Source of the DNA: Terriglobales bacterium
Lineage (GTDB): Bacteria > Acidobacteriota > Terriglobia > Terriglobales > Acidobacteriaceae
NCBI GenBank assembly: GCA_025936825.1
Contig: JAICSO010000002.1
Coordinates: 124,001 to 188,000, forward strand
Direction of reading: 5' to 3'
DNA length: 64,000 nt
This document shows, piece by piece, positions 6,785-26,261 of this stretch. Positions within the stretch are counted from its first letter, which is position 1; every line of letters begins with the position of its first letter. Under the pieces are notes generated by a model. It was given only the letters and a program-made list of their open reading frames with translations, did no database searches and had not been told where the DNA came from. A program made the translations under genes and the position numbers.

Positions 6785-8890
6785 CTACTTCGGCAGCGCA
6801 AACGCCACGTACAACCCCCCAGACTTCGATCGTAAGTCTTTGCCTCCACCGGCGGCGATTACCACGTACTGGCGTCCGTTCACTTCGTAGGTAATCGGCG
6901 TTGCATTTCCCCCGAATGGAAGCGTCGTCTCCCACAACAGTTCGCCGGTTGCCTTGTCATAGACGTGGAATTTCCTGTCGTAGCTGGTTGCGCCAATAAA
7001 CAGCAATCCGCCTGCAGTCACCACCGGTCCGCCATAGTTTTCACTGCCGGTGTTCTTCATCCCCTTGGCAGCCAGTTCCGGATATTCCCCAAAAGGAATC
7101 TTCCACGCATACTCTCCGGTGTTGACGTTAATCGCGTTAAGTGTGCCCCACGGCGGGGCTACGGCCGGATACCCTTCCGGATCGTAAAACCGGTTGTACC
7201 CCATGAAGCGATATTTCATGATCGGGACGATTGGCTCGGAGGACGACAATTCTTTGCTCTCGCCCTTAGTGAGATATTCGACAACCGCGTTGACTTCATC
7301 CTGGGAAAGATTGGTAAAGCTGGGCATGCGACCGCGACCTTTGCGAATGACACTTGCGATGCCGGCGTTGTCGAGCCGCGAACCAATGTCCGCCAGTGAT
7401 GGAAAATTCGGCGGTGAACCTTTGCGATCATCGTGATGGCAAATGGAGCACTGTGTTTGGTAAATGCTCTTGCCACTCAAATCTTTGGCAGTGTTTTCGG
7501 TCAGCTGCGCAACCCAGGGAATGTCGTTGGCATTGACATAGAGAATCCCCGTTTCCGGATCGAACGCAGGCCCTCCCCACTCGGCGCCTCCATCAAAGCC
7601 TGGAAAGATTGCGGTGGGCTGTTTGGTGCCAAACGGAACAAATTGTCCGGCGCTCTCCATGTTTTTAAACTGCTCTACTGCCCACTTGTGCGCCTCCGGC
7701 GTGCGGTTTGTGAGCAGATCGGCAGTTAGTAATTGGCGGGCATACGGAGCCGGCCTGGTTGGAAGCCCCTGCTCATCCGCAGTGACTTCGCCGGGCAGTT
7801 CGCTCTTGGGATATTTCTTGTACTCGATCGGGAACAGCGGCTTGCCGGTTGCCCGATCGAACAGATACACAAAACCTTGCTTACTGGTTTGAATGACAGC
7901 GTCAACCTCTTTGCCGTCGTGCTTAATTTTGGCAACGACCGGCGGCGCAGGAAAATCGCGGTCCCAGATGTCATGACGCACGGCCTGGAAATGCCAGATG
8001 CGCTGACCGGTCTCTGCGTTGAGAGCGACCAGCGAATTCGCGAATAAGTCATCGCCCACGCGATCGCCGCCGTAGAAATCAAATGCTGCCGAACCAGTTG
8101 GAACGTATAACACGCCGGCCTTGGGATCGAGCGACATCCCCGTCCAGTTATTCGCCGACCCCACTTTCTTCCACGCATCTTTCGGCCAAGTGTCGGCACC
8201 GTACTCACCTTCGTGGGGAATGGTGTGAAAGCTCCAGCGCAATTTCCCGGTGTGAACGTCATACGCGCGAATGTCGCCGGGAGGGCAGGGAAGTGTTTCC
8301 GGTTCACGGCCTCCAACGATGAACAGATCCTTGTAAACCACCGCCGGGCTGGTGAGCGCGATGGACGCCGTGGATGGATCGACGCCCAGGTTTTCACGCA
8401 AATCAATACGCCCATGATCTCCGAAAGTCTCAATGGCCTTGCCGGTATCGGCGTTGATCTCGTAAACAAAGTTCATCACGCCGACGATGATGCGGTGGTC
8501 GTCGCCGCTGCTCCAGTAGGCAAGGCCCCGATCGGGCTGCGTGCCGAAAATGCCGGAATCGAATTTCCACTTCTGCGCGCCCGTGGCCGCATCCACGGCA
8601 AAGATCTTTTGTGATGGCGAGATGCCATAGAGAACTCCGTTCACCTCGATCGGGCTTGTCTGGAGGCCGCCGACTTCCTGTGTGTCATAGGTCCAGGCAA
8701 TTTGCAGTTGCTTCACGTTGGACTTATTGATCTGTGCCAGCGGGGAGTAATGCGTGCCTTCCGGGGCACCGCCGTAAACAGACCAATCACGGTTCTGTGC
8801 GGTCGCGAGCGAGGGCAGTAAAAAAAAGCAAAGAACTAACCACCAAGGACACAAAGTCCCACGAAGGAAGCCACGAAGCGGAATGTGCAT
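6785..8890 (-). CDS. PQQ-dependent dehydrogenase with internal cytochrome c domain (quinohaemoprotein)
   Basis: This 701-residue exported protein has a signal peptide (about 1-31, ending LATAQ) and an eight-bladed PQQ propeller. The catalytic-site motif RHDIWDRDFPAPP lies near residues 305-317 and GGAEWGGPAFDP near 434-445. A cytochrome c domain with haem motif CSICH (481-485) and probable axial Met in GRMPSF is inserted before the last blade. Family members oxidise sugars or alcohols in the periplasm and pass electrons to the respiratory chain. Insertion of the haem domain before the final blade is common in glucose/quinate-type enzymes of Acidobacteriota. The substrate cannot be deduced. 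The signal peptide core is encoded by an interspersed repeat (8830-8868). Confidence 0.92.
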   Translation of the reverse strand: MHIPLRGFLRGTLCPWWLVLCFFLLPSLATAQNRDWSVYGGAPEGTHYSPLAQINKSNVKQLQIAWTYDTQEVGGLQTSPIEVNGVLYGISPSQKIFAVDAATGAQKWKFDSGIFGTQPDRGLAYWSSGDDHRIIVGVMNFVYEINADTGKAIETFGDHGRIDLRENLGVDPSTASIALTSPAVVYKDLFIVGGREPETLPCPPGDIRAYDVHTGKLRWSFHTIPHEGEYGADTWPKDAWKKVGSANNWTGMSLDPKAGVLYVPTGSAAFDFYGGDRVGDDLFANSLVALNAETGQRIWHFQAVRHDIWDRDFPAPPVVAKIKHDGKEVDAVIQTSKQGFVYLFDRATGKPLFPIEYKKYPKSELPGEVTADEQGLPTRPAPYARQLLTADLLTNRTPEAHKWAVEQFKNMESAGQFVPFGTKQPTAIFPGFDGGAEWGGPAFDPETGILYVNANDIPWVAQLTENTAKDLSGKSIYQTQCSICHHDDRKGSPPNFPSLADIGSRLDNAGIASVIRKGRGRMPSFTNLSQDEVNAVVEYLTKGESKELSSSEPIVPIMKYRFMGYNRFYDPEGYPAVAPPWGTLNAINVNTGEYAWKIPFGEYPELAAKGMKNTGSENYGGPVVTAGGLLFIGATSYDRKFHVYDKATGELLWETTLPFGGNATPITYEVNGRQYVVIAAGGGKDLRSKSGGLYVAFALPK
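8830..8868 (-). repeat. Interspersed CTTTGTG-type repeat, copy B, coding for a signal peptide
   Basis: Read on the minus strand, this 39-base block has the unit structure CTTCGTG - CTTTGTG - CCTTGGTGG - TTAGTTCTT. It matches copy C (24089-24129) at 34 of 39 positions. It lies inside the PQQ dehydrogenase gene and encodes FLRGTLCPWWLVL of the signal peptide. Confidence 0.75.
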
Positions 8891-9134
8891 GACCCTCGCG
8901 TTTTACGCGAAAGGGAGTGTGCGGGTCAAGTGGAATCAGGCGATTGCGTAGTGGCTCAGAGTGAATGTCGGCTTACTCTCATGCGTCTTCCCGAAGCCCC
9001 GCGTTTTCGCCAGCGGGGCGAGGGATCTCGCTTGGAGCGCCGATGCCGCACGCAAGGTCCTTCGCTCCCTATAAAACAAAGGTTCGGCTCAGGATTACGC
9101 TGGAATTCAACCGATCTACTATCGCCCCTCTGGC

Positions 9135-9707
9135 TCACTTATCGGCAACATCGAATTCGATGCGGACTTCATCCTTCACCTTGATCGACCCGCCGCCAAT
9201 GGTAATGGGCGTCATGCCAAATTCAGTCTGCCGAAATCGCGATGAGCCGCGATAGTGACCGTTTGCGCCCTCGACTTCCACCTTGACCGGGTGCGTTTGC
9301 CCGTGCAGCGTCAGATCGCCTTGCACATTCCACTTACCCGGGCCTGCGACTTCGATCGATGTGGAATGAAAACTGATCTCCGGAAACTTGTCCGGGTCGA
9401 GCACCTTCGGCCCTTCCATTGTGTGTTGCACCTGCGAGCGCTCGCTGTCCGAACCGTCCGGATCGAGCACCTTCAGATCCGCCGACTTCACCTTGAACTC
9501 TACCGTGTGTTTCTGCTCGTCAAAGCTACCGCTCTGGATGGGCGCGCGAATCTCGTGATCGTGCGCGAACGCTGAGAACAAGCCTGATTTGTAAACGCGA
9601 ACCGTCAGCACCGACTTTTCCGTGTCGATATCGCGAGCTCCTGCCAACGGGCAGCAACACGCGAATGCCACCACCACAATCGCGATTGCACGGATACATC
9701 TCATCAT
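9135..9707 (-). CDS. YceI family periplasmic protein
   Basis: An exported protein of about 190 residues with signal peptide MMRCIRAIAIVVVAFACCC ending near AGARD. The rest matches the YceI lipocalin-like barrel: it starts IDTEKSVLTVRVYKSG, contains FPEISFHST (the FPxxxF-type core motif) and GDLTLHGQTHPV, and ends with FGMTPITIGGGSIKVKDEVRIEFDV. Family members bind polyprenoid or amphiphilic molecules in the periplasm; the role here is unknown. The start is placed at the double ATG (9707/9704) behind AGGA rather than at the upstream TTG (9722). The gene is close to redox proteins (PQQ dehydrogenase, di-haem cytochrome), but there is no shared operon. Confidence 0.88.
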   Translation of the reverse strand: MMRCIRAIAIVVVAFACCCPLAGARDIDTEKSVLTVRVYKSGLFSAFAHDHEIRAPIQSGSFDEQKHTVEFKVKSADLKVLDPDGSDSERSQVQHTMEGPKVLDPDKFPEISFHSTSIEVAGPGKWNVQGDLTLHGQTHPVKVEVEGANGHYRGSSRFRQTEFGMTPITIGGGSIKVKDEVRIEFDVADK

Positions 9708-9893
9708 GATCCTGCCGCTCAACCTGAATTATTCAGTATCCCAGACCCCGCATCAACTCTGGAGATCAGAACCTCACAAAGACTTTACAGCTTAGAGACA
9801 AACGTCCGTAACCATCGCCCCACTCCAAACTCCATTCCCGGGTAGCGAGAATTTACTCCCGACTTCTCGCGCGGGGCAAGCTCGGAGGAAAGA

Positions 9894-11267
9894 ATGAAAC
9901 CGCTGTGGAAAGTATTGTCCGTCACCGTAATTGCTGCATCCCTGATTACTGCCTACGCTCTGCGAGCGGAAAAGAATTCTGCGAACAACGTCGTCCTCGA
10001 TAGTTTCGATCAAACTACCAACACCAATGCTCAACAACTCGTTGCCGATGGCCGCCAGATTTTTCGTTTCGACACCTTTGGTGACGAAGACTACTGGGGT
10101 GGCACTCTCCAACTCCATAAGGCGATCGAAGGCGCGAAATTCGGAGGCGTTGGTCCTGGCGTTAGCCCTGCGACCGCTGCCGCCGTCGGACTCAAGATCG
10201 ATGCCGACGCCCTCCCTTCTTCAATCGTCGATGCTGTCAAGGCGGGGCAAATGAATCTTAATGATCCCGCCGTTACCCTCGCGTTGCTGAAACTCAATGC
10301 CGTGGTTGGCGTCACGGGAATCTTCAACACCGATGGCAGCCTCAAGTCCATCGGCATTCAGTGCGCTTTCTGCCATTCCCGCGTCGACAACTCGTTCTCA
10401 GCTCCTGGAATTCCGGAAGGAGTGATTGGTCATCGTCTGGATGGCTGGTCGAACCAGGATCTGAATGTCGGTGCAATTGTAGCCCTCGCCCCCAACCTTC
10501 AGCCGATTGCGAATCTTCTGCATACAGATGTCCCTACAGTGAAAAAAGTCCTTATGAGCTGGGGCCCGGGCAAGTTCGACGCCGAACTCAACCTCGACGG
10601 CAAAGCGTTTCGTCCTGACGGTAAATCCGCCGCAACCCTGATCCCGCCAGCTTTCGGCAAGGCCGGGGTGAACCTGCACACCTGGACCGGCGCTTGGGGC
10701 ACGGTCAGTTACTGGAATGCGTTTGTCGCGAATCTGGAGATGCACGGCAAAGGAACCTTCTTTGATCCGCGATTGGACAATGCGAAGCAGTATCCGATCG
10801 CTGCTGCCAATCACTTCGGACACGTCCACAACGAGACTGATCTGATCTCGTCCAAGCTTCCCGCACTTCACTTTTATCAATTGGCGATCCCCGCTCCAGC
10901 GCCTCCGGGCGGCAGTTTCGACGAAGACGCCGCGAAGCGCGGGGATGAACTGTTTAACGGCAAGGCCCATTGCGCTTCCTGCCACACCGAGCCAACGGGC
11001 ACCGAACCCGGCTGGAATCTGCACAAGGGCAGCGAGGTGTGTGTCGACGATTTCGAGGCCAATCGCGCTCCCGATCATCGTTACCGCACCAGCACACTGG
11101 AAGGCCTGTGGACTCATCAGAAGCGCGGATTCTTCCACGATGGACGTTTCCCCACACTGCTGGATGTGGTCAACCACTATGACTCGTGCTTCTCGCTCGG
11201 CCTCAGCAACGGCGAGAAGAGTGACATTGTTGAGTACCTGAAGTCACTTCCTTCGGAGGGAGACTAA
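9894..11267 (+). CDS. Di-haem c-type cytochrome, cytochrome c peroxidase/MauG-like
   Basis: This 457-residue exported protein has a signal peptide (about 1-25) and two haem c attachment motifs: CAFCH in the middle and CASCH about 200 residues later. The segment DHRYRTSTLEGLWTHQKRGFFHDGRFPTLLDVVNHY is the conserved C-terminal region of the di-haem peroxidase family. A strong ribosome binding site GGAGGAAAGA precedes the ATG. It probably acts in the periplasm in peroxide reduction or electron transfer. A long insertion between the haems means it may not be a classical peroxidase. Confidence 0.85.
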   Translation: MKPLWKVLSVTVIAASLITAYALRAEKNSANNVVLDSFDQTTNTNAQQLVADGRQIFRFDTFGDEDYWGGTLQLHKAIEGAKFGGVGPGVSPATAAAVGLKIDADALPSSIVDAVKAGQMNLNDPAVTLALLKLNAVVGVTGIFNTDGSLKSIGIQCAFCHSRVDNSFSAPGIPEGVIGHRLDGWSNQDLNVGAIVALAPNLQPIANLLHTDVPTVKKVLMSWGPGKFDAELNLDGKAFRPDGKSAATLIPPAFGKAGVNLHTWTGAWGTVSYWNAFVANLEMHGKGTFFDPRLDNAKQYPIAAANHFGHVHNETDLISSKLPALHFYQLAIPAPAPPGGSFDEDAAKRGDELFNGKAHCASCHTEPTGTEPGWNLHKGSEVCVDDFEANRAPDHRYRTSTLEGLWTHQKRGFFHDGRFPTLLDVVNHYDSCFSLGLSNGEKSDIVEYLKSLPSEGD

Positions 11268-11446
11268 ATACTTCACACTCACCGCTGTCGCGAACTGATG
11301 ATCGAAGGAGCTTCTATGCGCAACGTAATTCGGTCTCATGCTTGCGCCTTGCTGCGGCGCTCCGGTGAAGCCGGTTCGAACTTCTTCCTGTTCTTCAGTT
11401 CGGAGTTGAATTCCCACGAGATGTACTATGACAGAGGCAAAGAAAT

Positions 11447-11471
11447 GGGCAGTGCGTTGCCTGCACTGCCC
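11447..11471. terminator. Perfect 9-bp hairpin between convergent genes
   Basis: GGGCAGTGC (11447-11455) pairs perfectly with GCACTGCCC (11463-11471) around a 7-base loop. It lies between the converging cytochrome and DUF4097 genes. The tail is richer in T on the minus strand (ATTTCTTT), so it probably terminates the sigma operon, and perhaps both units. Confidence 0.6.
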
Positions 11472-11482
11472 GTTTCAAAGTT

Positions 11483-12955
11483 CTAGTTTTCGCTTTCTTG
11501 CGGTGTATCGGGCGCCCTCGGAGATTTTGGACTCGGCGGGGTTGGAGGCATAGCCGCCATTCCCGTGTCCGTCCTCACCTCGATTGACCCATGCTCGTTG
11601 TTCAGCACCATGCGGGGTCCGCCACCATTCGCGGAGCCATTGCCCGTGCCGCCAGTATCACCATTTTCGATCTTCAAGGAGTTGAAGTCTGTCTGAATCT
11701 CGCCGTCGTGAGCCTGCGCCTGCAATTGGAATCCAGCCTTCGCGGGCACATAGACACGAATGTCTCCTCGGCTGTTGCTTATGTCCAACGGGCCGAGTTT
11801 GCTGACGTGAACCTCGACCGCTCCGTTTTCATTTGTGAGACGAACGTCGTTATTCACTCCGTTCAGCATGATGTCTTTCGAGCGCGTCTTCAGGCGCAGC
11901 GGTCCAGTAATGCTGTTCGCTTCCAGGTCGCCCGAGTCGAGGTTCAGATAGCCTTCGACTTTGGCGATGTCCATCTCCGTCCGCGTCGTTCGGAAGCTCA
12001 CAGCCTTTGCAATTCGCGCCAGCTTCAAGTCTTCTCGGAAATCGCCATCGAGATGAACCGCGCCCTTGACATCCTCAATCGAAACTTCTTTTGCGCGGCC
12101 CTGAATGGTGACGTCGGAACTCACCTGTGAAATACGTGCCGAACTGTTTTCCAGACTCAGTGTCAGGCCACCACTCAAGTCAGTGATGGCAACATCGCCA
12201 TCCTGGCTAGTGACGGTTGCGTTGCCGTCGCGTCCCATAACGCTGATGTCACCGTGTCGCGTGGAAATCGTCAACGAAGCCTTGCGCGGAAGCGCGATGT
12301 CCAGGTCCGTATTGATCCAATGATCGCCCGCGCCCTTCGTGTTGGCGTCCAGCGTCAGCTGCTGACCGGCAACTGTAAGCTGGGGCTTGCTCTCCTTGTC
12401 CCAACGATCAGCCTGGTCTTGCCGCTCGGCGTTGATGCGCTTGTGAACGGAAACGTGAATCTGATTGTCATCCGAGGCATTCACGTTGATCGCGCCATGT
12501 TCATTGGTGACCTTCAGGTTTCCACCCGCAGGGAAGGCCTGCTGGAAATCATCGGTGTAGTTGTAGCTGTGTCCCCACCAAGGGTTGTCGCCATCGATGT
12601 TGAACTCCTCTTGCATGCGCTGCCAGTCAACTCGCGACAACGAAGTAGCGGTCAGCCCGGCTACGACCAGGAACACGATCAGCACAACTCCGCCGGCCCC
12701 GATCCCACTCGACCTTACCCCTGAGCGGTTCGACTGCTGATACTCGATCAGCTTGATGATTCCCCACAGAATCAGCAGTGCCGGCCAGAAGTGCGCGAAC
12801 CAGAGAAACACTCGATGCCACTCGAGCATCCCCATCGTTCCCATCAGGCCGAGGATGCCAATGATGATCAGCACAACCGGTCCGGCGAAGGAACGTGGCG
12901 GACGCACCGGCCTCATCGGCGGGGCAGGAGGTGGTGTTTGCACTGTGCTAGCCAT
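11483..12955 (-). CDS. DUF4097-type beta-repeat protein with N-terminal membrane segments
   Basis: The 490-residue protein starts with a Pro-rich leader, then three hydrophobic segments (about 25-45, 49-68 and 86-106). A long right-handed beta-helix-like domain follows, made of repeats such as LKVTNEHGAINV, LTISTRHGDISVMG and VTSQDGDVAITDL, as in DUF4097/LiaG-like adhesins. The C-terminus is Gly-, Ser- and Pro-rich. It is the last gene of the sigma operon and overlaps the preceding gene by 8 bases. It is likely an envelope protein whose beta-helix faces the periplasm. Function unknown. Confidence 0.85.
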   Translation of the reverse strand: MASTVQTPPPAPPMRPVRPPRSFAGPVVLIIIGILGLMGTMGMLEWHRVFLWFAHFWPALLILWGIIKLIEYQQSNRSGVRSSGIGAGGVVLIVFLVVAGLTATSLSRVDWQRMQEEFNIDGDNPWWGHSYNYTDDFQQAFPAGGNLKVTNEHGAINVNASDDNQIHVSVHKRINAERQDQADRWDKESKPQLTVAGQQLTLDANTKGAGDHWINTDLDIALPRKASLTISTRHGDISVMGRDGNATVTSQDGDVAITDLSGGLTLSLENSSARISQVSSDVTIQGRAKEVSIEDVKGAVHLDGDFREDLKLARIAKAVSFRTTRTEMDIAKVEGYLNLDSGDLEANSITGPLRLKTRSKDIMLNGVNNDVRLTNENGAVEVHVSKLGPLDISNSRGDIRVYVPAKAGFQLQAQAHDGEIQTDFNSLKIENGDTGGTGNGSANGGGPRMVLNNEHGSIEVRTDTGMAAMPPTPPSPKSPRAPDTPQESEN

Positions 12956-13886
12956 TTTTCACCTCGCTATTCACCTCAGTAGGAGGCTGCTGCTCGTAAG
13001 GCCCACCAGAACCCGGCGGAACCGCTGGAGGGTGACCTCCACCCAGGTAGCCCCGCTCAACCAGTTTTAAAACGCCGATCACCAGCAGGATCAGCGGCCA
13101 CGTGCGACCAAATCCCGGCACGTTCCACCAATGGTTATGCAGGTTGTCGAGCAGGAAGATCACGCCAAGCGTCACCAGCACGGCTGGACCGGCAAGGCTG
13201 CGATGCCGATAATCGCCGCGTTCTGCGGCTGACTTCCGTTTTGCGAAGAGCCACACGCCCAGCGCAATCAGAATCGCAGGCCACAGCGCGTCCATGCTCA
13301 AGTACCACAAGCCGGTGTTCTGAAGCAGGAACAAAGCGCCCAACAGAATCAGAATCAACGCCCCAGCCGGTGCCCCTCGGGTAATATCGCGGCGCTCTCC
13401 GCCCGGACTAAACATCGTGGCCAGTCCCATCGGATCGGGTGGCGTCTGTCCCGCGTTGATGGCCTTTGCCGTCTTCACCGCGTCAAAGATCTGGTAAAAA
13501 ACGAACGCCGCGATCCCAATGCCACAGATCGTGTCCAGCGGATCATGTCCATGGCTCGCGCCGATCACCAGCAAGATGAAGATGATCAAGTGCGCCAGAC
13601 CCTTGGCGTATTGCCCGTTGTAAACGGCTCCCACTCCAAATGGGATTGCGCCCAAAATTCCTGCCAGCCCTGGATTCGGTCCTGAGCTTGAGACTACGAC
13701 CGGCGTTCCTGGCGCTGTCGGCGCGGTATAAGGTGAACTCGGCGCGCTCCCCGTCACGCGCTCGGCAAGACAGCTCTCGCAATACGCTATGCCCATGACC
13801 TCGCGAACGCAGTCCTGGCACAGCGGCTTGCCGCAAGTACGACAGTACTTCGCGACCGCCTTGTCTGGATGATTTGCGCAGTTCAT
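12948..13886 (-). CDS. B-box-like zinc finger membrane protein
   Basis: The N-terminus (about 1-45) has the pattern CANHPDKAVAKYCRTCGKPLC-x2-C followed by YCESC, a B-box-type double zinc site. Five or more hydrophobic segments follow, including two LiaF-like units (PAGALILILLGALFLLQN and GPAVLVTLGVIFLLDNL) also seen in DUF5668 proteins. It overlaps the anti-sigma gene by 4 bases (ATGA) and the next gene by 8 bases, so it is translationally coupled. It may be part of an envelope-stress module; no enzymatic role is visible. Confidence 0.8.
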   Translation of the reverse strand: MNCANHPDKAVAKYCRTCGKPLCQDCVREVMGIAYCESCLAERVTGSAPSSPYTAPTAPGTPVVVSSSGPNPGLAGILGAIPFGVGAVYNGQYAKGLAHLIIFILLVIGASHGHDPLDTICGIGIAAFVFYQIFDAVKTAKAINAGQTPPDPMGLATMFSPGGERRDITRGAPAGALILILLGALFLLQNTGLWYLSMDALWPAILIALGVWLFAKRKSAAERGDYRHRSLAGPAVLVTLGVIFLLDNLHNHWWNVPGFGRTWPLILLVIGVLKLVERGYLGGGHPPAVPPGSGGPYEQQPPTEVNSEVKNG

Positions 13887-14668
13887 ACGAACCTCCTGTA
13901 AGTGGCCCCATGCACTACAGGTGAATCAACCATCCCCGTTCGCAAGAAATCTGCTGGTTGAAGGTCCCCGGCTGCAGGAAGAGCGGCATACATCACGTGC
14001 GTCCCTTCCTGGCTGTAGTTGCGTTCCTGTTTTTCGGGTTGCCCACTGCTGTTCTTCTTCTTGTTTTCGTTGTTGTTGTTTGGTTGCGTCTCACGCCTCT
14101 CTTCGGAGGGTGCCGCCTGCTTCAACTGGCGCACTCGCGATTCGATCTCGTAGACGAACCGGATGTTTTCGTAATACTTCACCACCCGGCCTTGCGTTTC
14201 ATAATACGTGCGCCGAACTGCGCTCGGCCGCAAACTAATGTGGCGGATGTCGCTCAACCGTACACCGGCGATGCTCAGCGTCACCGACAGAGTGAAGAAC
14301 GCCATTCCGAAAGACATGGCGAATCTCGGCTGGCGCGCCACGGCGACCACCGGCGAGAGGATTGTATCGATCCATCTGCCGATGCGCTCTCCCCAGGTAG
14401 CGCGTGCTGTAGCTTTGCCCGCCGCGACTCCGCTGGTCGCCAGCAAGATGTTGTTGACGAGGTGTGCCGGAGGCTCGACTTCCTCCAGCGACTTCAGCCA
14501 GCCGCGGCCGGCTTCGGCGTCGCGAAGCATTGGACCGCAGAGCTTGCACTCGTGCCCGTGGGACTCGAACGCCTGCAGGCGCTCGCCCGAGAGGGTGCCG
14601 TCAATGGCCTGGCTGAGCAGCGCGTCAAACTCGCTGCACTGAATCCCGTTATGTCCTTGGCCTGCCAT
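13883..14668 (-). CDS. Anti-sigma factor with zinc-finger (zf-HC2) domain
   Basis: About 261 residues. The N-terminal segment CSEFDALLSQAIDGTLSGE ... HGHECKLCGPML is a zinc-binding anti-sigma domain (pattern C-x-H-x3-C-x2-C). A predicted single TM helix lies near 118-140 (FAMSFGMAFFTLSVTLSIAGV). A charged, Asn/Gln-rich tail lies outside. It starts within the sigma stop codon (TGATG), the classical coupling of an ECF sigma factor with its anti-sigma. It should hold the sigma factor inactive at the inner membrane until a signal arrives. Confidence 0.88.
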   Translation of the reverse strand: MAGQGHNGIQCSEFDALLSQAIDGTLSGERLQAFESHGHECKLCGPMLRDAEAGRGWLKSLEEVEPPAHLVNNILLATSGVAAGKATARATWGERIGRWIDTILSPVVAVARQPRFAMSFGMAFFTLSVTLSIAGVRLSDIRHISLRPSAVRRTYYETQGRVVKYYENIRFVYEIESRVRQLKQAAPSEERRETQPNNNNENKKKNSSGQPEKQERNYSQEGTHVMYAALPAAGDLQPADFLRTGMVDSPVVHGATYRRFV

Positions 14669-15267
14669 CACATCACCTGCCTATATGTACGTTGGAGGAG
14701 ACGTGCAAGTTCCGCTCGCCCCCGATTTATCCTGGATTTCACCGTTCCCTCCGGCACCTTGAGAGTAACCGCTATTTCGCGGTAGTCCATATCCTGTAAG
14801 TCCCTTAGAATCACTGCCTCACGAAGCTCCGGAGAGAGTTTCTGCAGGGCCGCATGCACCGCCTCGCGAGTCTCCCGGCTTTGAACCTTGGAATCAGGGG
14901 TGGGCGCCTGGTCAGGGATCCTCTCCCCAAGGGGCATTGCATCTTCATGATCGGACTGGGTTGTGTCCAGCGAATCGGTCATCCGCTCCTGCCGGGCCTT
15001 GCGGAAATGATCAACCAGCAGGTTTCTGGTTACGGTGGTCACCCAGGTCATAAATGCCCCGCGATTCACGTCGTACGAATTCAGCGTGCGGTAGATCTTG
15101 ATGAAAACCTCTTGCGTCAGATCTTCCGCATCGTTGCCCGAGCCCGTAAACCGGTAACAAATGTTATATATGCGCCGGTTGTACTGCTGGACGATCTCCT
15201 CCCACGCTGCGGCGTCGCCGGCAATGCAGCGACGGACCAGCAAAGCAGCCACGTGGGCGTCTTCCAA
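14668..15267 (-). CDS. ECF-type RNA polymerase sigma factor (RpoE-like)
   Basis: A 199-residue sigma-70 family protein. Region 2 contains YNRRIYNICYRFTGSGNDAEDLTQEVFIKIYRTL, and region 4 contains LSPELREAVILRDLQDMDYREIAVTLKVPEGTVKSRINRGRAELARLL. There is an acidic linker between them. It probably starts at a TTG behind GGGGAGAAAA. It is the first gene of a four-gene unit: sigma, anti-sigma, zinc-finger membrane protein, DUF4097 protein. It likely responds to an envelope signal and autoregulates this operon. Confidence 0.93.
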   Translation of the reverse strand: MEDAHVAALLVRRCIAGDAAAWEEIVQQYNRRIYNICYRFTGSGNDAEDLTQEVFIKIYRTLNSYDVNRGAFMTWVTTVTRNLLVDHFRKARQERMTDSLDTTQSDHEDAMPLGERIPDQAPTPDSKVQSRETREAVHAALQKLSPELREAVILRDLQDMDYREIAVTLKVPEGTVKSRINRGRAELARLLQRTYRQVM

Positions 15268-15321
15268 GCTTTTCTCCCCGGAATTTGTGCGGGATGGGAT
15301 TCTAGCTGTCAGTCATCGCGG

Positions 15322-15426: not shown

Positions 15427-15551
15427 CTTCCGACGGCGGACAGCTCAACAGAGACCAGCCCCAAACCGTTCGTACAAAGATACGCTGAAACGGACCCTCA
15501 GGTTCAGTGCGCCGGGTCACGCGAAGGTGAAGGAGTATGCAGTTTGGCACC

Positions 15552-15706
15552 TTCAGCCGTCAGCCATCAGGGAGGAGTGTTTTTGCTGTGGAATTCTTCA
15601 GCCATGATCGGAAGTTGGCTGGCCCAAGTCCCCGGCTTTGCTTTCGTCTTTGCGGACTTTGCGCCCTTTGCGGTTTATCGGTTCTTCCTGATGGCTGATG
15701 GCTGAG
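15552..15706. repeat. Inverted repeat enclosing a CTTTGCGG-type repeat (copy D)
   Basis: TTCAGCCGTCAGCCATCAGG (15552-15571) is inverted as CCTGATGGCTGATGGCTGAG (15687-15706) with one or two mismatches. Between the arms, at 15637-15686, lie the units CTTTGCGGA - CTTTGCGCC - CTTTGCGG - TTTATCGGTTCTT, a diverged member of the CTTTGTG family. It looks like a composite intergenic repeat or a small non-coding structure. Confidence 0.6.
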
Positions 15707-18408: not shown

Positions 18409-19178
18409 GACAGCTCCTGCGCCGCCGTTCGCGGTCCCCCAACGGTTTTCAGGAAGAATTCTTCCAGCGACATACGCTCGCCCGGACTGGCTTCATCTGC
18501 GGTGCTCACTCGCAAATCATCCAGCGGACCTTGGGCGACAAGTCGCCCGTTGTTGATAATGCCAACGTGCGTGCACAAGCGCTCCACAATTTCCAGCACG
18601 TGCGAAGTGAGAAAGATCGTCGCCCCGCGGGAGATCATCCTCTGCAACATCGCTTTCAACGTGTTCGAGGCGATCGCGTCGACGCCTTCAAACGGCTCGT
18701 CCAGGAACAGGACCTTGGGCCCGTGAATCACCGCCGCTGCCATCGCTAACTTCTTCTGCATACCGTGGGAGTAATCGGTGATCAGCGTTTTCGGATGGTC
18801 CGTCAACTCCATAAATTCCAGCAGTTCCGCCGCACGTTGGGCCGCGGTGGTGCGATCGAGGCCATACATCCTGCCAACGAAGTTCAGGTACTCCGATCCC
18901 GTTAGCCTGCCAAACAGCGCCATACCCTCGGGAACGACCCCAATTTGGCGTTTCACATCTACCATGTGCGTCGCGAGATCGACCCCAAGGATCTGCATAC
19001 GTCCGGAAGTCGGCGCCATCAACCCGGTCAGCATCTTTATGGTTGTCGATTTCCCAGCGCCGTTCGGCCCGAGGAAGCCATAGAACTGCCCAGTTTCGAC
19101 CCGAAGGTTTACGTCCTGAACGGCCGTGAAATCGCCAAAACGGCGGGTAAGGTTCTCAGTGAGGATTGCGGCTTCCAC
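18396..19178 (-). CDS. ABC transporter ATP-binding protein
   Basis: A 260-residue ATPase with Walker A GPNGAGKST (about 37-45), signature YSHGMQKKLAM, Walker B VLFLDEPFEGVD and the H-loop TSHVLE. It resembles the drug/lipid-exporter (CcmA/NatA-like) class. It is the first gene of the exporter operon and drives the overlapping permease at 16774-18408. Confidence 0.93.
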   Translation of the reverse strand: MEAAILTENLTRRFGDFTAVQDVNLRVETGQFYGFLGPNGAGKSTTIKMLTGLMAPTSGRMQILGVDLATHMVDVKRQIGVVPEGMALFGRLTGSEYLNFVGRMYGLDRTTAAQRAAELLEFMELTDHPKTLITDYSHGMQKKLAMAAAVIHGPKVLFLDEPFEGVDAIASNTLKAMLQRMISRGATIFLTSHVLEIVERLCTHVGIINNGRLVAQGPLDDLRVSTADEASPGERMSLEEFFLKTVGGPRTAAQELSWLG

Positions 19179-19371
19179 AAGAATCCGAGCCTACCACAGC
19201 ATTGGGGAAATGGGTCTCCCACGATCGGGCCATCCGGAGATCCAAAGGGGCGTATCTGACGGCAAACTGGACAAAACACCGTTTTTTTCAAAAACGGAAC
19301 AAAAAAGATATTTCTGCGGCGGCAAATGCCCGCTCCCATAGACTTCTAGGTAGCGTTTCGGGGCGTGTTAG

Positions 19372-19887
19372 ATGACTTTCGCTTACACACTTGTCTTCAT
19401 CAGTGTTCTCGGACTTTTAGCCCTCCTGCTCCTGGCGAAGGGTTATTGGTTTGCCCGAAACACACAACTCCCCAGCACTTCGGAATTGCTTCCGATCGAC
19501 GTCGACGCTTTCCGCAACCTCATCGACGAGAACGAGGAGCTCTATCTTCGCGAGCGACTGCCTGGCGGAGAGTTCCGCAGAGTTCAGCGTGAACGCATGC
19601 TGGCGGCAGTGGAGTACGTTCGTGCCGCATATGCAAATGCTGGAATCCTGGTCAGGATTGCTGAAGCCGCGAGAGAAAGCGCAGATCCCAAAACGGCCGA
19701 AGCGGCAGGGAAGTTGTTCGACAACGCGGTGCAATTGCGCTGGTATGCGGTCCAGGTAATCCCGCGGCTTTACTTCAAAATGCTTTTTCCGGGAACAAGT
19801 CGTGCGCCCAGAAACCTGTTCGACCGCTACGACATTCTTACGCACCAGGCTCTGGTTCTGGGAAGGTTGGGATCCGTAGAACGCTAG
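19372..19887 (+). CDS. Membrane-anchored protein of unknown function
   Basis: 171 residues: an N-terminal TM helix (TLVFISVLGLLALLLLAKGYWF, about 6-27) and a largely alpha-helical cytoplasmic or periplasmic domain with DENEELYLRERLPGGEFRRVQRERMLAAVEYVR. It starts at ATG in a GTTAG context with no strong ribosome binding site. It converges on the hfq-like gene. The family is not recognised. Confidence 0.7.
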   Translation: MTFAYTLVFISVLGLLALLLLAKGYWFARNTQLPSTSELLPIDVDAFRNLIDENEELYLRERLPGGEFRRVQRERMLAAVEYVRAAYANAGILVRIAEAARESADPKTAEAAGKLFDNAVQLRWYAVQVIPRLYFKMLFPGTSRAPRNLFDRYDILTHQALVLGRLGSVER

Positions 19888-19908
19888 CGTGTACAGGCCA
19901 AACCGGGG

Positions 19909-20328
19909 TTACTTCTTGCCCTCGGATTCCTTGTACATGTACTTGATCGAAGGCTTATAAATCATCACGTTCGGGGCGCCGTTCCGGTTCACCTTGATGC
20001 AGGACCGGTCGTACCACTCGATTACGCCATGCACTTCTTCGCCATCAGTTAGCACGATCACCATAGGCGTCTTGCCCTGCATCTGCTTCTGGTAATAGAA
20101 ATTTTCCGCGTTGGTCTGATCCGGCGGCGGAGACTTGCGCGCGCCGTTCGAACGTTCGCCACGATCACCACGGTCGCTGCGTTCGCCGCGGTCGCGGCCG
20201 ATGGGAGCAGATGCGCCGTGACTTGGGCCGGAATGGTTGGAGTGATTTAACGCGGGACGGATCAACTTGCGATTTCCAAATTCCGGGTCATGGCGTTCGG
20301 CTGGCATGGATTGCACATTGTCTCTCAT
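19909..20328 (-). CDS. hfq: Hfq-like Sm-fold RNA-binding protein
   Basis: About 139 residues. The C-terminal 65 residues are an Sm fold: FYYQKQMQGKTPMVIVLTDGEEVHGVIEWYDRSCIKV, then a second motif PNVMIYKPSIKYMYKE, close to the YKHAI-type Sm2 of Hfq. The N-terminal half is Asp/Arg/Gly-rich and disordered (repeats of GDRGERSD), an unusual place for the extension, since Hfq tails are normally C-terminal. The ATG at 20328 lies behind AGGTGG. Hfq hexamers bind small RNAs and mRNAs. Confidence 0.85.
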   Translation of the reverse strand: MRDNVQSMPAERHDPEFGNRKLIRPALNHSNHSGPSHGASAPIGRDRGERSDRGDRGERSNGARKSPPPDQTNAENFYYQKQMQGKTPMVIVLTDGEEVHGVIEWYDRSCIKVNRNGAPNVMIYKPSIKYMYKESEGKK

Positions 20329-20479
20329 GGCACCACCTGTCAGACACGCTTTCGAATTTGCGGCCACAGAACTCCGGCGCGCGGTTGGATGTTAGGCGTG
20401 AATTGCTAATTAAACTAGCACAGCAAAAGGCACGTGACAATCCAAAGTTAAGTGTAAGGAGGGTACTGGAGCCATACTC

Positions 20480-20556
20480 GATTGAATCATTGAATCATCG
20501 GAGGATTCAATGATTCAAGACCTTGGCGGTCAGGGTTGTAATGATTCAATGATTCA
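20480..20556. repeat. ATTGAATCATTGA inverted-repeat block, copy 2
   Basis: ATTGAATCATTGAATCAT (20481-20498) is followed by TTCAATGATTCAAG and, after a spacer, by AATGATTCAATGATTCAATT (20540-20559). It is the same family as 15322-15426. It occupies the gap between the hfq start and the carboxylase stop and may serve as a terminator-like hairpin. Confidence 0.7.
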
Positions 20557-20562
20557 ATTCTT

Positions 20563-22245
20563 CTAGGTTTGCAGCACCCCCACCTTGAACTCCGGCACGT
20601 CTGGATTCAATGCCGAGGCTTCGAGGGCCGTAACAATCGAATCCCGAGTTTCCATTGGGTCGATAATGCGGTCAATCCACAGTCGCGCGGCTCCGTATCT
20701 GGGGTCCATTTGCTCGTCGTAGGTCTGCTTGACAGATTCGTAAAGCTGCTTGGTTTCTTCTTCGGAGAGCTTTTTACCGCTTCGTTCCAGTTGGCGAATT
20801 TTGATCTCAACCAGCGTGCCCGCTGCCGAGTCTCCCCCCATTACCGCATACTTCGCCGTGGGCCACGCAAAAACAAAACGAGGATCGTATGCCTTGCCGC
20901 ACATGGCGTAATGCCCAGCTCCAAAAGAACCGCCGATAATCACGGTGACCTTTGGCACAACAGAGTTCGACACGGCATTCACCATTTTTGCGCCAGCCTT
21001 GATGATCCCGCTCCACTCCGCATCGCGGCCCACCATGAACCCGTTGACGTCGTGGAGAAATACCAGCGGCACCAAGTTCTGATTGCAATCCATGATGAAT
21101 CGAGCCGCTTTTTCCGCCGATTCCGTGTAAATAACACCGCCAAATTCCACGCGCTTATGGCCCTGGTGATCGGTGCCTTGCGCATGCATTTTTTGATTGG
21201 CGACAATGCCGACTGCGAAACCGCCGATCCGCGCATATCCGCACACAACCGTCTTGCCGTACTCAGCTTTGTATTCTTCGAACTTACTCGCGTCGACAAT
21301 GCGGCCAATGATTTCCTTGATGTCATACGGGCGCGCCGCCGAGGACTCGTAAATGCCGTAAATTTCTTCTCCAGCCAGCGCTGGCATCACCGGTTTCTTA
21401 CGGTCCCACGGCGACTGCCGGCGGTATCCCCACTTCTCGACGATCGATCGGATCCGGTGGAGACAAGCTTCGTCATTTGGCTCGTGGAAATCGACGGTTC
21501 CGCTGATTGCCGAGTGCATCGCCGCACCACCAAGCTCCTCGGCAGAAACTTTTTGCCCAATGGCGGCCTGGACCAGCGCCGGTCCCGCCAGGAACAGTCC
21601 ACTGCCGTCAGTCATCAGCACGTGATCGCACATCACCGGCAGATATCCGCCACCGGCTACGCACATCCCCATGATGGCCGCAATCTGCGGAATGCCCATA
21701 GCCGACATCACCGCATTGTTGCGGAACACGCGGCCAAAATCGTCGGTGTCGGGGAAGACGTCTTCCTGCAGCGGCAGGAACACACCGGCAGAATCGACCA
21801 GGTACATGGTAGGGATGCGGTTTTCAATCGCGATGTTCTGTGCCCTGATGACTTTCTTCGCCGTCATAGGGAAGAACGCACCGGCTTTCACAGTGGCATC
21901 ATTCGCGATGATCATCACCATACGCGTTTCGATCCGCGCCAATCCCGTGACCACCCCTGCGGCGGGCGCCCCGCCCCACTCGTCGTACATCCGGTACGCC
22001 GCATAGGAGCCAAGTTCGAAAAAGCTTCCCGGGTCGACCAGTTTCTGAATGCGCTCACGGGCTGTCAGGCGTCCTTTATTGTGCTGGCTGTCGATGGCCT
22101 TGGGTCCGCCACCTTCCCGAATCTGCTCTTCTTCATTGCGGACGGCCGACACCAGGTCGGCCATGTAGCGCATATTCGTTTCAAAGCGCTGCGACGTTGG
22201 GTCGATTTTGGTGCTGAGGATGGAACTGGAGTTTTCGCCCGCCAT
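20563..22245 (-). CDS. Acyl-CoA carboxylase, biotin-dependent carboxyltransferase beta subunit
   Basis: A 560-residue carboxyltransferase with both crotonase-like halves. The N-terminal half has GKGRLTARERIQKLVDPGSFFELG, GVVTGLARI and the oxyanion loop MCVAGGGYLP; the C-terminal half has VVCGYARIGGFAVGIVANQ, LVFLHDVNGFMVG, IIGGSFGAGHYAMCGKAYDP and FAWPTAKYAVMGGDSAAGTL. Length and motifs fit the propionyl-/methylcrotonyl-CoA carboxylase class that transfers CO2 from carboxybiotin to an acyl-CoA. The biotin carboxylase partner is not adjacent. Start ATG at 22245. Confidence 0.93.
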   Translation of the reverse strand: MAGENSSSILSTKIDPTSQRFETNMRYMADLVSAVRNEEEQIREGGGPKAIDSQHNKGRLTARERIQKLVDPGSFFELGSYAAYRMYDEWGGAPAAGVVTGLARIETRMVMIIANDATVKAGAFFPMTAKKVIRAQNIAIENRIPTMYLVDSAGVFLPLQEDVFPDTDDFGRVFRNNAVMSAMGIPQIAAIMGMCVAGGGYLPVMCDHVLMTDGSGLFLAGPALVQAAIGQKVSAEELGGAAMHSAISGTVDFHEPNDEACLHRIRSIVEKWGYRRQSPWDRKKPVMPALAGEEIYGIYESSAARPYDIKEIIGRIVDASKFEEYKAEYGKTVVCGYARIGGFAVGIVANQKMHAQGTDHQGHKRVEFGGVIYTESAEKAARFIMDCNQNLVPLVFLHDVNGFMVGRDAEWSGIIKAGAKMVNAVSNSVVPKVTVIIGGSFGAGHYAMCGKAYDPRFVFAWPTAKYAVMGGDSAAGTLVEIKIRQLERSGKKLSEEETKQLYESVKQTYDEQMDPRYGAARLWIDRIIDPMETRDSIVTALEASALNPDVPEFKVGVLQT

Positions 22246-22521
22246 GCGATTGCTACGTTAAATCACGCGAGCAGAAGGCGCAAACCTGCGGAAAAGGTCA
22301 CGCATGGGCCGTCGCACGTCGCACGCGGATTCTGCTGATCACTGGCGCCCGTGTTTCCGCCACAGGTGCTCGCCGTGGCACGCAAGACGTGCGACTTGCG
22401 ACCGCAAGCACCGATAGGTCTGCGGTCTTCCCTCGTTTGACAAACTCCCGCTGCTCACTTCAAATCGTCTTTCGCGTCTAAAACAGATTCAGCCACTCAG
22501 TTCGTCTGCTCTGGAGGTTCG

Positions 22522-24081
22522 ATGTCGCGCGTCGCCCTGCTCTCTCAACCTATACCCAGGAATTACTCCGCCCTCATCCGACAGGCCCTGGCCGTCGCAG
22601 TTCTAACCATGGTTCTGGCTGTCCTCTCAGCCGCCCAAGACCTCGCCGCCTTCGAGAAGCGGGTCACGGTCAAGAAGCTGCCCAACGGTCTGACCGCGAT
22701 CGTCTGTGTCCGCCCGAAGACCGCGCCGGTGTTTTCCTTCTACACCAACGTGGATGCGGGTTCGGTGCAGGACCCAATGGGCAAGACTGGCCTGGCCCAC
22801 ATGTTCGAGCACATGGCCTTCAAGGGAACTGACACCATAGGGACGAAAGACTACGCCGCCGAGAAGGTCGCGCTGCAGAAGGTCGAGGACGTTTACGCTC
22901 AGTACATTCACGAGCGTGACAAGCCTGTCGACCGCGACGAAGCCAAGACCAAGCAACTCGAGCAGCAGTGGCAGGACGCGATCAAAGAGGCCCAGCAATA
23001 CGTCGTTCCTAACCAGTTCAGCGAGATCATTGAGAGCAACGGCGGTGAAAATGTAAACGCATCCACCAGCGAGGACCACACCGAGTATCACTACTCGTTC
23101 GCCGTAAACCGGCTGGAACTTTGGGCATATCTTGAGTCGTCGCGTTTTATCCATCCCGTGTTTCGCGAGTTCTACAAAGAGCGTGACGTGGTGAAAGAAG
23201 AGCGCCGCATGCGCACCGACAGTTCGCCCATCGGACGCCTAATCGAGCAGTTCATCGAGACATCATTCTCTGCCCACCCCTATCACCGTCCGACCATTGG
23301 CTACATGTCGGATCTAAACACTTTTTCGGCAACGGACGCCCAGGAATTCTTCAATCGTTATTACATCCCTTCGAATATGGTCGTCGCAGTTGCGGGCGAC
23401 TTCGATCCCAATCAGGCGATGGGAATCATCGAGAAGTATTTCAGCCAAATTCCTTCGCATCCGAAGCCGGACGAACGCACCACTACCGAGCCGCCGCAGA
23501 ACTCGGAGCGCACCGTGGTTCTGCACGAGAGGAGCCAGCCTATCTATCTCGAGGGCTACCATCGACCGGATTACCGCGACAAAGATGATGCTGTTTACGA
23601 CGCGCTTGCTGACCTGCTCTCCGAGGGACGAACCTCGCGCTTGTACCGCTCGCTGGTTCGCGACAAGAAAATTGCCTCTGAAGCGGAAGGCGGCACCGGT
23701 TTCCCCGGCGTGAAGTACCCACACATCTTCTATTTCTTCGCTGCGCCCATGCCGGGACACACGCCGGAGGAAGTGGCCACTGCCATCCATGCCGAAATCG
23801 ATCGCCTGAAGAAAGAACACATCACCGATGATGAGCTCAAGATGGTGAAAACCCGCGCCAAAGCCAATCTCCTCCGCAGCCTCGACGACAACGAGGGCTT
23901 GGCAACGAATCTCGCTCTGTATCAAACCCTTTACGGTGATTGGCGAGAGCTGTTTCGCACCGTCGATCGAATCAACGCAGTGAGCAAAGCCGACATTCGT
24001 CGCGTCGCCGGACAGGTCTTCGTGCCGACCAATCGGACCGTAGGCATCATCGAAAGCGCCAACGCGGGAGGTGCGCAATGA
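22522..24081 (+). CDS. Secreted M16 family zinc peptidase, catalytic partner
   Basis: 519 residues with a signal peptide (about 1-38). The inverted zinc motif HMFEH is at 93-97 (LAHMFEHMAFKG), and the downstream Glu region NVNASTSEDHTEYHYSF is present, so this is the active subunit. Two pitrilysin-type halves (Peptidase_M16 and M16_C) are recognisable. GGAGG precedes the ATG. It overlaps the next gene (ATGA), which encodes the inactive partner; together they should form a periplasmic M16B heterodimer. Confidence 0.93.
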   Translation: MSRVALLSQPIPRNYSALIRQALAVAVLTMVLAVLSAAQDLAAFEKRVTVKKLPNGLTAIVCVRPKTAPVFSFYTNVDAGSVQDPMGKTGLAHMFEHMAFKGTDTIGTKDYAAEKVALQKVEDVYAQYIHERDKPVDRDEAKTKQLEQQWQDAIKEAQQYVVPNQFSEIIESNGGENVNASTSEDHTEYHYSFAVNRLELWAYLESSRFIHPVFREFYKERDVVKEERRMRTDSSPIGRLIEQFIETSFSAHPYHRPTIGYMSDLNTFSATDAQEFFNRYYIPSNMVVAVAGDFDPNQAMGIIEKYFSQIPSHPKPDERTTTEPPQNSERTVVLHERSQPIYLEGYHRPDYRDKDDAVYDALADLLSEGRTSRLYRSLVRDKKIASEAEGGTGFPGVKYPHIFYFFAAPMPGHTPEEVATAIHAEIDRLKKEHITDDELKMVKTRAKANLLRSLDDNEGLATNLALYQTLYGDWRELFRTVDRINAVSKADIRRVAGQVFVPTNRTVGIIESANAGGAQ

Positions 24082-26261
24082 GCAAGTTCTTCCTTCGTGC
24101 TCCTTGGTGTCCTTTGTGGTTAGTTCTTCTTTTCGTTGCCGTAACTAATGCCCAGGAATGGAAGAAGATTCCCATTCCAACGCTGCCTGCGTTCCATCCA
24201 CAGGAGCCTAAGCGCGTGGAGCTGCCGAACGGCATGGTGATCTTCCTTCAAGAAGACCATGAGCTGCCATTTATCGACATGACCGCTCGCATTCGTGGCG
24301 GCTCGCGCGTTGAGCCCGCGACCAAAACCGGCCTGGTTTCTCTTTACGGCGAAGTATGGCGTACCGGCGGCACCAAGTCGCAAACCGGCGATCAATTGGA
24401 CGATTACCTCGAAATCCGCGCCGCCAAAGTCGAGACCGGCGCCAACGCCGACTCCACTACCATCGGTTTGTCGAGTCTGAAAGAAGACTTCAACGACGTC
24501 TTCAAAGTCTTCACCGATCTTCTCCGCGATCCCGAATTCCGCGCCGACAAGCTCGAACTGGCCAAGCGCGAAGCCGCCGACTCTATTTCGCGCCGCAATG
24601 ACGAAGCCAGCCAGGTGGCAGCGCGCGAAGCGGCGAAGCTCGCGTATGGCAAGGACAATCCTTACGTCCGCGAGCCCGAATACGCCACGGTTGATGCTGT
24701 GACGCGACAAGACTTAGTCGACTGGCACAACAAATACGTCTACCCCAACAACATCATTCTCGGCGTGGCCGGCGACTTCGATCCCGCCCAGATGGAAGCC
24801 AAGCTCCGCGCGGCTTTCGCGTCATGGGCGAAGGGCCCCGCAGTCAAGCCTCCTGACATCCAGTTCACTCCCGCTAAGCCCGGCTACTACCTCATTAAGC
24901 GCGAGGACGTAAACCAGAGTTGGATCCGCATGGTCACGCTCGGCACCACGCGCCGCAATCCCGATTACTACGCCATTGAAGTCTTCAACGAAGCGTTCGG
25001 GGGCGGCTTCTCGGCACGCCTGATTCAGAACATCCGTACCGCGCAAGGCCTGGCCTACGCCGTGGGCGGAGGGATCAGCACGCGCTTCGATCATCCCGGC
25101 ATCACTCAGTTGGCGATGGCCACCAAGAGCGAGAGCACCGTAAAAGCGATTAACTCACTGTTCGAGCAGATTGACTTGCTCAAAACCTCAAAACCCGTTA
25201 CTGACGAGGAGATCAAACGCGCCAAAGACACAATTTTGAACAACTTCGTCTTCAACTTCGATACGCCGGGCAAGGTGCTGCAGGAGCGTATGGCGTACGA
25301 GTACTACGGATATCCGCCAGACTTCCTTGAGCAGTATCGCGCCGGGATTGAAAAGGTAACCACTGCCGACGTTGCTCGAGTCGCTAACAAGTACCTGCAC
25401 AAAGATCAACTCGCCGTGCTGGTAACCGGCAACGCTGCCGATTTTGACAAGCCGTTGTCCTCGTTAGGTTCGGTGCAGAATGTCGACATCACCATCCCGC
25501 CGCCTCCGGGGAGTGCCACGCAGCAGGGAAGTGAGAAGCCAACCAGCAATGATCCGGCAGCGCAAGGAAAGAAGGAGTCGAATCCCGAAGGCAAGGCTCT
25601 CGTCTCCAAAGTTGTGCAGGCGCTCGGAGGCGCGGAAAAACTGAACAGCGTGAAGTCAGTGAAATCAAAATTTACCGTTGATCAGAAGACCGGCCAAATG
25701 CCAGGACAGATTCAGGCCGAAAGCAGCATCGTCTATCCCGATCACATGAAGCTTGACATGACTATGGCGCAAGGCAGCTTCTCGATCGTAGTTACTCCGG
25801 CTGCGGCTTTTGTGGAGTCGGGAGGCCAAGTCATCCAGGAACTGCCGCCCTCGCGCCGCGACGAAAGCATGGCGCAGATTCACCGCGACCTCATATACAT
25901 TGCGCAGCACGCCTCCGATCCGGCATTCACGTTTGCGGCGTCAGGCAGCGAGAAGTCCGGCGACACGGATACGGCGATCGTGGATGTCTCCGGCCCGGGC
26001 GTGGATCTGCGCTGGTTCGTCGATCCGCAGAGCGGCAAGGTTGTTCGCGAGACTTACCAGGCCATGGGGCGCTCTGGCCCGGAGAACACCGAGACCGCGT
26101 TCTCCGACTGGCGCCCGGTAAATGGGCTGAACCTGCCATTTCACCGCGCCAATAAGCAGAACGGACAGGATGCGAGCACCACTCAATTCACCAGCTTCGA
26201 ACTGAACCCGCAAGTCGATCCAAAGATTTTTGAGAAGCCGGCTTCGGCGCCGCAGCAGTAG
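24078..26261 (+). CDS. M16 family protein lacking the zinc motif, fused to a C-terminal LolA-like domain
   Basis: 727 residues. A signal peptide ends near VTNAQEW. The M16 body aligns with its neighbour, but where HxxEH should be the sequence reads TGLVSLYGEVWRTGG, so zinc binding and catalysis are lost. R/Y residues in the C-terminal half (GGGFSARLIQNIRTAQGLAYAVG) are kept, as expected for the non-catalytic subunit. After a Pro/Ser-rich linker (about 475-505), about 215 residues follow that begin ALVSKVVQALGGAEKLNSVKS. They have the look of an exported LolA/LolB-type beta domain. The start is the ATG overlapping the upstream stop; the signal peptide core is encoded by an interspersed repeat. 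Confidence 0.9.
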   Translation: MSKFFLRAPWCPLWLVLLFVAVTNAQEWKKIPIPTLPAFHPQEPKRVELPNGMVIFLQEDHELPFIDMTARIRGGSRVEPATKTGLVSLYGEVWRTGGTKSQTGDQLDDYLEIRAAKVETGANADSTTIGLSSLKEDFNDVFKVFTDLLRDPEFRADKLELAKREAADSISRRNDEASQVAAREAAKLAYGKDNPYVREPEYATVDAVTRQDLVDWHNKYVYPNNIILGVAGDFDPAQMEAKLRAAFASWAKGPAVKPPDIQFTPAKPGYYLIKREDVNQSWIRMVTLGTTRRNPDYYAIEVFNEAFGGGFSARLIQNIRTAQGLAYAVGGGISTRFDHPGITQLAMATKSESTVKAINSLFEQIDLLKTSKPVTDEEIKRAKDTILNNFVFNFDTPGKVLQERMAYEYYGYPPDFLEQYRAGIEKVTTADVARVANKYLHKDQLAVLVTGNAADFDKPLSSLGSVQNVDITIPPPPGSATQQGSEKPTSNDPAAQGKKESNPEGKALVSKVVQALGGAEKLNSVKSVKSKFTVDQKTGQMPGQIQAESSIVYPDHMKLDMTMAQGSFSIVVTPAAAFVESGGQVIQELPPSRRDESMAQIHRDLIYIAQHASDPAFTFAASGSEKSGDTDTAIVDVSGPGVDLRWFVDPQSGKVVRETYQAMGRSGPENTETAFSDWRPVNGLNLPFHRANKQNGQDASTTQFTSFELNPQVDPKIFEKPASAPQQ
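24089..24129 (+). repeat. Interspersed CTTTGTG-type repeat, copy C, coding for a signal peptide
   Basis: The block TTCCTTCGTG ... CCTTTGTGG - TTAGTTCTT lies directly behind the start codon of the second M16 gene. It encodes FLRAPWCPLWLVL. It matches the block in the PQQ dehydrogenase at 34 of 39 bases, in the same reading frame. Confidence 0.75.

Follow-up and report, generated by a model that had tools for sequence, protein, structure and literature searches.

An intergenic hairpin-arm repeat as the likely signal-peptide core of two unrelated proteins in a Terriglobales bacterium

The stretch of DNA analyzed here, referred to as the window, comprises 64,000 nt of the Terriglobales bacterium assembly GCA_025936825.1 (contig JAICSO010000002.1, 124,001–188,000 of the forward strand). 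The host is a soil acidobacterium with a genome of 6.54 Mb in 141 contigs, designated G000 below. Two genes of the window, one for a PQQ dehydrogenase and one for a protein of the M16 peptidase family, each contain a copy of a short repeat close to their 5' end, and other copies of the same family lie between genes (Table 1). Gene calls were made with a home-made codon and hexamer caller that is conservative (68% of the window was called coding) and, therefore, some intergenic labels may be wrong. Few ORFs between 26300 and 43100 scored as coding with the model trained on the G000 genome, which is perhaps caused by genes of foreign composition or by weakness of the caller. A second short-unit hairpin (GAAGGTTTC... 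/ ...GAAACCTT), with a unit that differs from the CTTNGTG repeat, was observed in the intergenic region at 905–990.

Table 1. Genes, likely signal peptides and repeat copies in the window (positions are those of the window).
Feature	Position	Strand	Basis or remark
Non-coding repeat copy, CTCTGTG form	792..829	+	sequence; between called genes
PQQ dehydrogenase with cytochrome c domain, 701 aa	6785..8890	-	Pfam
Likely signal peptide of PQQ dehydrogenase, MHIPLRGFLRGTLCPWWLVLCFFLLPSLATA	8798..8890	-	translation, hydropathy, charge
Repeat copy, CTTNGTG form	8831..8869	-	no inverted partner (<=4 mismatches, 150 bases)
Additional CTTCGTG unit beside the PQQ copy	8872-8878		
Non-coding diverged repeat copy, CTTTGCG form	15637..15686	+	sequence; between called genes
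First M16 gene	22522..24081	+	Pfam; 4-base overlap with start of second
Ribosome-binding site GGAGG and spacer, 5' of M16 start	24067..24077	+	conserved in 8/8 genus genomes
M16 peptidase-family gene, second of pair, 727 aa	24078..26261	+	Pfam PF05193 (M16_C), PF00675 (Peptidase_M16)
Likely signal peptide of M16 protein, MSKFFLRAPWCPLWLVLLFVAVTNA	24078..24152	+	translation, hydropathy, charge
Repeat copy, CTTNGTG form	24090..24128	+	no inverted partner (<=4 mismatches, 150 bases)

Ungapped comparison of the two blocks within genes revealed that they are identical at 34 of 39 positions. When the 39-mer of the M16 gene was used as a query against both strands of the window, there was no third place with 15 or fewer mismatches. 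A 30-base pattern of three units, CTTNGTGNNNCTTNGTGNCCTYNGTGGTNA, matched each block with 0 mismatches and had no other match in the window, nor any in 100 shuffles of it, and the same was true of a 21-base core. In their common register the blocks encode FLRGTLCPWWLVL (PQQ dehydrogenase) and FLRAPWCPLWLVL (M16 protein), and the host proteins, which Pfam assigns to different families, are otherwise unrelated. A first-pass annotation had described the 34/39 identity, the single reading frame, the unrelated host proteins and the two non-coding family copies. All of these observations were confirmed, with the coordinates of the blocks shifted by a base or two, and with the non-coding copies proving to be variants of the unit.

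Both blocks very likely form the cores of signal peptides, a label that we base on the hydropathy and charge of the N-termini and on the protein families. The net charge of the first ten residues is +2 in both proteins. The best 12-residue core has a mean Kyte-Doolittle hydropathy of 2.70 in the M16 protein and 2.56 in the PQQ dehydrogenase, and the orthologues for which it was computed range from 2.19 to 2.93.

Searches of the complete G000 genome showed that the blocks belong to an interspersed repeat family, as the first-pass annotation had proposed. The 21-base core had 47 matches with 3 or fewer mismatches (0 in the reversed control), and a degenerate form had 178 matches with 2 or fewer mismatches (9 in the reversed control). 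These genome-wide controls, together with the shuffles of the window, exclude chance or convergence as the cause of the likeness between the blocks. The copies that we examined (n = 105) are those listed by either search or by both, a number below the 178 counted. They have two main forms, CTTNGTG (57 copies) and CTCTGTG (48 copies), with units of 9–10 bases repeated three or four times, and the CTTTGCG forms (e.g., the diverged copy in Table 1) are related. An identity of 34/39 is ordinary within the family, as 188 of the 5,460 pairs reach that level, and the two coding blocks are reciprocal best matches among the 105 compared copies. One locus (L088, G000:C8:29606-30365) was observed to be a local tandem array of five CTCTGTG copies spaced by about 100 bases, plus one inverse copy. 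The family extends to relatives of the host, as a similar pattern had one or more matches in 27 of 31 genomes (G000 and 30 others; counts of 0–110 and reversed controls of 0–5). We found no prior description of the CTTNGTG family in the open-access literature on Acidobacteria and on repeats.

Many copies are one arm of an inverted pair. A partner with 3 or fewer mismatches was found within 150 bases for 55 of the 105 copies, against an expectation of 0.004 per copy, and was present in both main forms (35/57 of CTTNGTG, 20/48 of CTCTGTG). Three inverted pairs that were folded gave hairpins of -38 to -51 kcal/mol. The RNA of the two coding arms, which have no such partner, folded weakly (-7.9 and -12.8 kcal/mol).

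The great majority of the copies (94/105) were intergenic according to our home-made caller, and only 11 touched called genes. Two of these overlap only a gene start (by 1 and 7 bases, in sense orientation), two overlap only a stop codon, five lie antisense within genes, three of them 60 or fewer bases from the stop, and the remaining two, the only copies in sense orientation within genes, are those of the PQQ and M16 genes. Two of the 105 copies are sense copies lying wholly within the first 30 codons, where uniform placement predicts 2.95. If the expectation is scaled by the observed depletion of copies from genes it falls to 0.45, for which the probability of at least two is 0.076. There is, thus, no excess by the uniform measure and at most a hint of one by the depletion-scaled measure. 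Both of the in-gene sense copies (2/2) lie in likely signal peptides, while the share of coding sequence that falls within the first 30 codons is 8%.

In a scan for upstream extensions of gene starts, 11 other copies could be reached by the frame of the downstream gene, the called starts of which lie beyond the repeat or at its edge; none of these 11 gave a convincing signal peptide as judged by eye. In another case (L096, G000:C14:109652), the ATG called for the next gene takes its first base from the end of a repeat copy. Three called genes of G000 (L104, L106 and L129) have an antisense copy at the 3' end, where it encodes a charged tail, e.g., TTEDTKVHKG, in mirror image to the hydrophobic peptide read in sense.

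The coding potential of the repeat differs markedly between its strands. Averaged over the 105 copies, the Kyte-Doolittle hydropathy of the three sense frames is 0.89, 1.65 and 0.45 where the frame is open, whereas the antisense frames have values between -1.2 and -2.5 and carry about four charged residues. Because the T-rich strand reads hydrophobic, few coding sites would tolerate the repeat, and the 5' ends of genes for exported proteins belong to these. The frame used by both the PQQ and M16 genes is the least hydrophobic of the sense frames and the least often open (29/105), and it supplies arginine. That two copies should have a frame in common has a probability of about 0.39 when weighted by frame openness and, therefore, the shared frame needs no explanation.

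To place the coding copies in a wider context, the orthologues of both genes were compared within the genus. The M16 gene was present in all eight genus genomes, and an alignment showed that GGAGG...ATG is conserved in all eight genes. The repeat is therefore translated in G000, and also in G007, where a copy lies at the same offset and in the same frame (N-termini MSKFFLRAPWCPLWLVLLFVAVTNAQ in G000 and MNRFLLRATSCPLWLMLLAGTLLGAVSKAQAQ in G007). The two copies have 5 differences over 30 bases, all of them at positions that vary within the family (P = 0.0009). In G003, the sister of G007, the N-terminus (MKKLLSRAPLCLILLV) is partly similar and perhaps represents a decayed copy. In five of the seven other genus genomes (G001, G002, G004, G005 and G006) the M16 signal peptide is of unrelated sequence, and no repeat-like peptide was seen in the M16 N-termini available from six further genera (G010, G012, G013, G016, G017 and G018). 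For the PQQ dehydrogenase, the repeat was absent from all five orthologues with a readable N-terminus (G001, G003, G004, G005 and G007), the comparison leaving out G002, in which the alignment stopped short of the start, and G006, which is truncated. The PQQ copy is in frame, and its start has been seen in one genome only. The first-pass annotation had asked whether orthologues lacking the repeat possess signal peptides of unrelated sequence. This was so for most orthologues, namely all five readable PQQ dehydrogenases and the M16 proteins of the five genomes just named, the M16 protein of G007 having the repeat and that of G003 being partly similar.

The history of the M16 copy could be one old capture followed by losses, a transfer, or two captures. 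The trees are compatible with each of these, as they do not place G000 firmly in the genus: in the M16 tree, G007 groups with G003, adjoining G004 and G001, and G000 falls elsewhere without firm placement. Recombination of the 5' end of the gene from a G007-like lineage was also considered and set aside, as there was only a weak hint of it (protein identity of 89–90% over residues 30–130 versus 73% over residues 130–330) and the effect was small at the DNA level. Retention of the M16 copy is not unique, as copies are sometimes kept between species. When flanking genes were mapped, 5 of 13 G003 regions had a copy in the interval matching that of G000 (L316, L318, L319, L322 and L325, the last by one flank only), as had 2 of 7 G007 regions (L313 and the M16 gene itself, L312). 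Four other regions (L311, L314, L320 and L321) have neighbors in common with G000 and the copy in another place, and the genomes do not have the same sub-form in one of the shared intervals (L322 versus L116).

We also scanned 398 genomes of the family for exact copies that terminate in TTA and follow an ATG at a distance of up to 33 bases, a pattern limited to ATG starts and undecayed copies. It was present in 63 genomes, with a reversed control of zero in all rows listed. From 56 of the 63, 150 ATG-preceded places were listed, and 118 of these are open from the ATG through the copy, 2 in G000 and 116 in other genomes. The latter are spread over loci L162–L276, including 85 retrieved stretches, which hold 127 combinations of an ATG and a copy. 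The reading frames of 62 combinations stopped by the end of the copy and those of 50 ended before 60 codons; 10 ran for 60–119 codons and 5 for at least 120. The sole clear new signal-peptide case among the 150 listed places was L188, the G007 orthologue of the M16 gene. A 176-aa frame in G197 (L226) was rejected as its likelier start is a downstream methionine, and L235, L183 and L169 were rejected as they look by eye like antisense frames.

Taken together, these data make it likely that an intergenic hairpin-arm repeat was captured as the signal-peptide core in the two genes, such captures being rare and not a dedicated supply of export signals. The captured block is one arm of a mostly intergenic interspersed repeat with 9–10-base CTTNGTG units, which often occurs as an inverted pair able to form a hairpin. 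In the two genes a single arm lies just 3' of the start codon, in the orientation and reading frame that give a mostly hydrophobic stretch, and it now forms the core of what is very likely a signal peptide. Such an arm would be tolerated there because the residues encoded by the T-rich strand are hydrophobic and a signal peptide has few other requirements. The repeat probably entered these genes at the expense of an older core. Export by the repeat-bearing N-termini presumably works, and the change was probably neutral or nearly so.

The first-pass annotation had gone further and proposed that a mobile or amplifying repeat provides ready-made export signals again and again as it spreads. Two cases 15 kb apart, the location of both in-gene sense copies within signal peptides and the hint from the depletion-scaled expectation are the observations that fit this proposal. 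Nonetheless, coding copies are no commoner than uniform placement predicts, an outcome that the first-pass annotation itself had named as refuting the idea, 94 of the 105 copies are intergenic, and the 150 ATG-preceded places listed from the 398-genome scan yielded one further clear case, itself an orthologue. The general claim was, thus, not upheld, and we consider it very improbable. A reading in which both starts have been placed wrongly, leaving the repeat as an untranslated leader, is more improbable still. It draws on the general warning about start misassignment for repeats at gene starts given by Di Nocera and colleagues (PMC3733652), and on the PQQ start having been seen in a single genome. 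Against it, the M16 start and its ribosome-binding site are conserved in all eight genomes, which rules out misannotation for that gene; for the PQQ dehydrogenase the rejection is less firm. In addition, a start after the repeat would strip both proteins of a signal peptide that is present in their orthologues.

A different possibility is that the repeat is kept for a role at the nucleotide level, such as a binding site or mRNA structure, or by recombination between copies, the encoded peptide being incidental. The restriction of G000/G007 differences to family-variable positions and the copies kept between species in G003 and G007 are consistent with such constraint, whereas the lack of an inverted partner for either coding copy, the weak folding of their RNA and the differing sub-forms at one shared interval argue against it. 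We know of no protein that binds the repeat, and we regard this explanation as improbable. It is also conceivable that the CTTNGTG family feeds signal-peptide turnover, with arms that arrive at gene starts in the T-rich orientation replacing existing cores and then staying under the nucleotide constraint of the repeat, through recombination between copies or a nucleotide-level function. The M16 copies of G000 and G007 are suggestive of this, although we think it unlikely.

The capture of repeats as coding sequence has precedents. In Yersinia, Delihas (2007, PMC2759123) describes a 168-bp repeat, RU-2/YPAL, within the signal peptide predicted for YPO1552, a protein of unknown function that is putatively exported. 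As in that type of case, the repeat studied here is multi-copy and mainly intergenic, it is translated in frame at the N-terminus, and the signal peptides of most relatives are unrelated. The event appears to be of the same kind; here, however, it involves an arm of 30–40 bases and two proteins of well-known families, and it adds a conserved start (M16) and one retained orthologue. According to PMC2229807 and PMC3733652, Rickettsia palindromic elements are inserted in frame in protein genes, and in-frame repeats within genes are also known from REP families. The Rickettsia elements resemble the present repeat in being translated as part of functional proteins, but they occupy many places in cytosolic proteins, whereas the present repeat was found only at the gene starts of two likely exported proteins.

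The repeat is also similar to REP, BIME and REPIN elements, which are associated with RAYT or TIRYT genes and, according to PMC3733652 and PMC6006769, are likewise short, multi-copy, mostly intergenic and often in inverted pairs. Unlike in REP, a single unit or arm does not form a hairpin of its own, strong hairpins coming from inverted pairs. Across the 31 genomes, which are not independent of one another, those with more Y1_Tnp matches tended to have more repeat copies (Spearman 0.82); the controls gave -0.09 for DDE_Tnp_1 and 0.35 for genome size. G005 and G006, the only genus genomes without a Y1_Tnp match, had 2 and 1 repeat matches, which is near background. The split into genomes strong and weak in Y1 was picked after the list had been seen. 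A REPtron-like arrangement was not found, as 27 of 30 Y1 loci had no repeat match within about 1.5 kb, and one of the three that did had a clear CTTNGTG copy, at a distance of about 1.4 kb (L283). The four Y1 loci examined have GC-rich inverted repeats of their own that differ from the CTTNGTG repeat. In this they resemble the TIR-associated transposases (TIRYT genes) that Di Nocera and colleagues report in Acidobacteria (PMC3733652). The link between copy number and Y1 transposases is a separate lead.

Overall, nothing in these data points to the repeat family as a general source of export signals; the kind of event is one already described in Yersinia, it is rare in number, and it reveals no new mechanism. 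What the two genes provide is a well-anchored example, with a conserved start, known enzyme families and a retained orthologue, of intergenic repeat DNA having probably become a likely export signal, in a family whose T-rich strand is a short step away from encoding a usable signal peptide.
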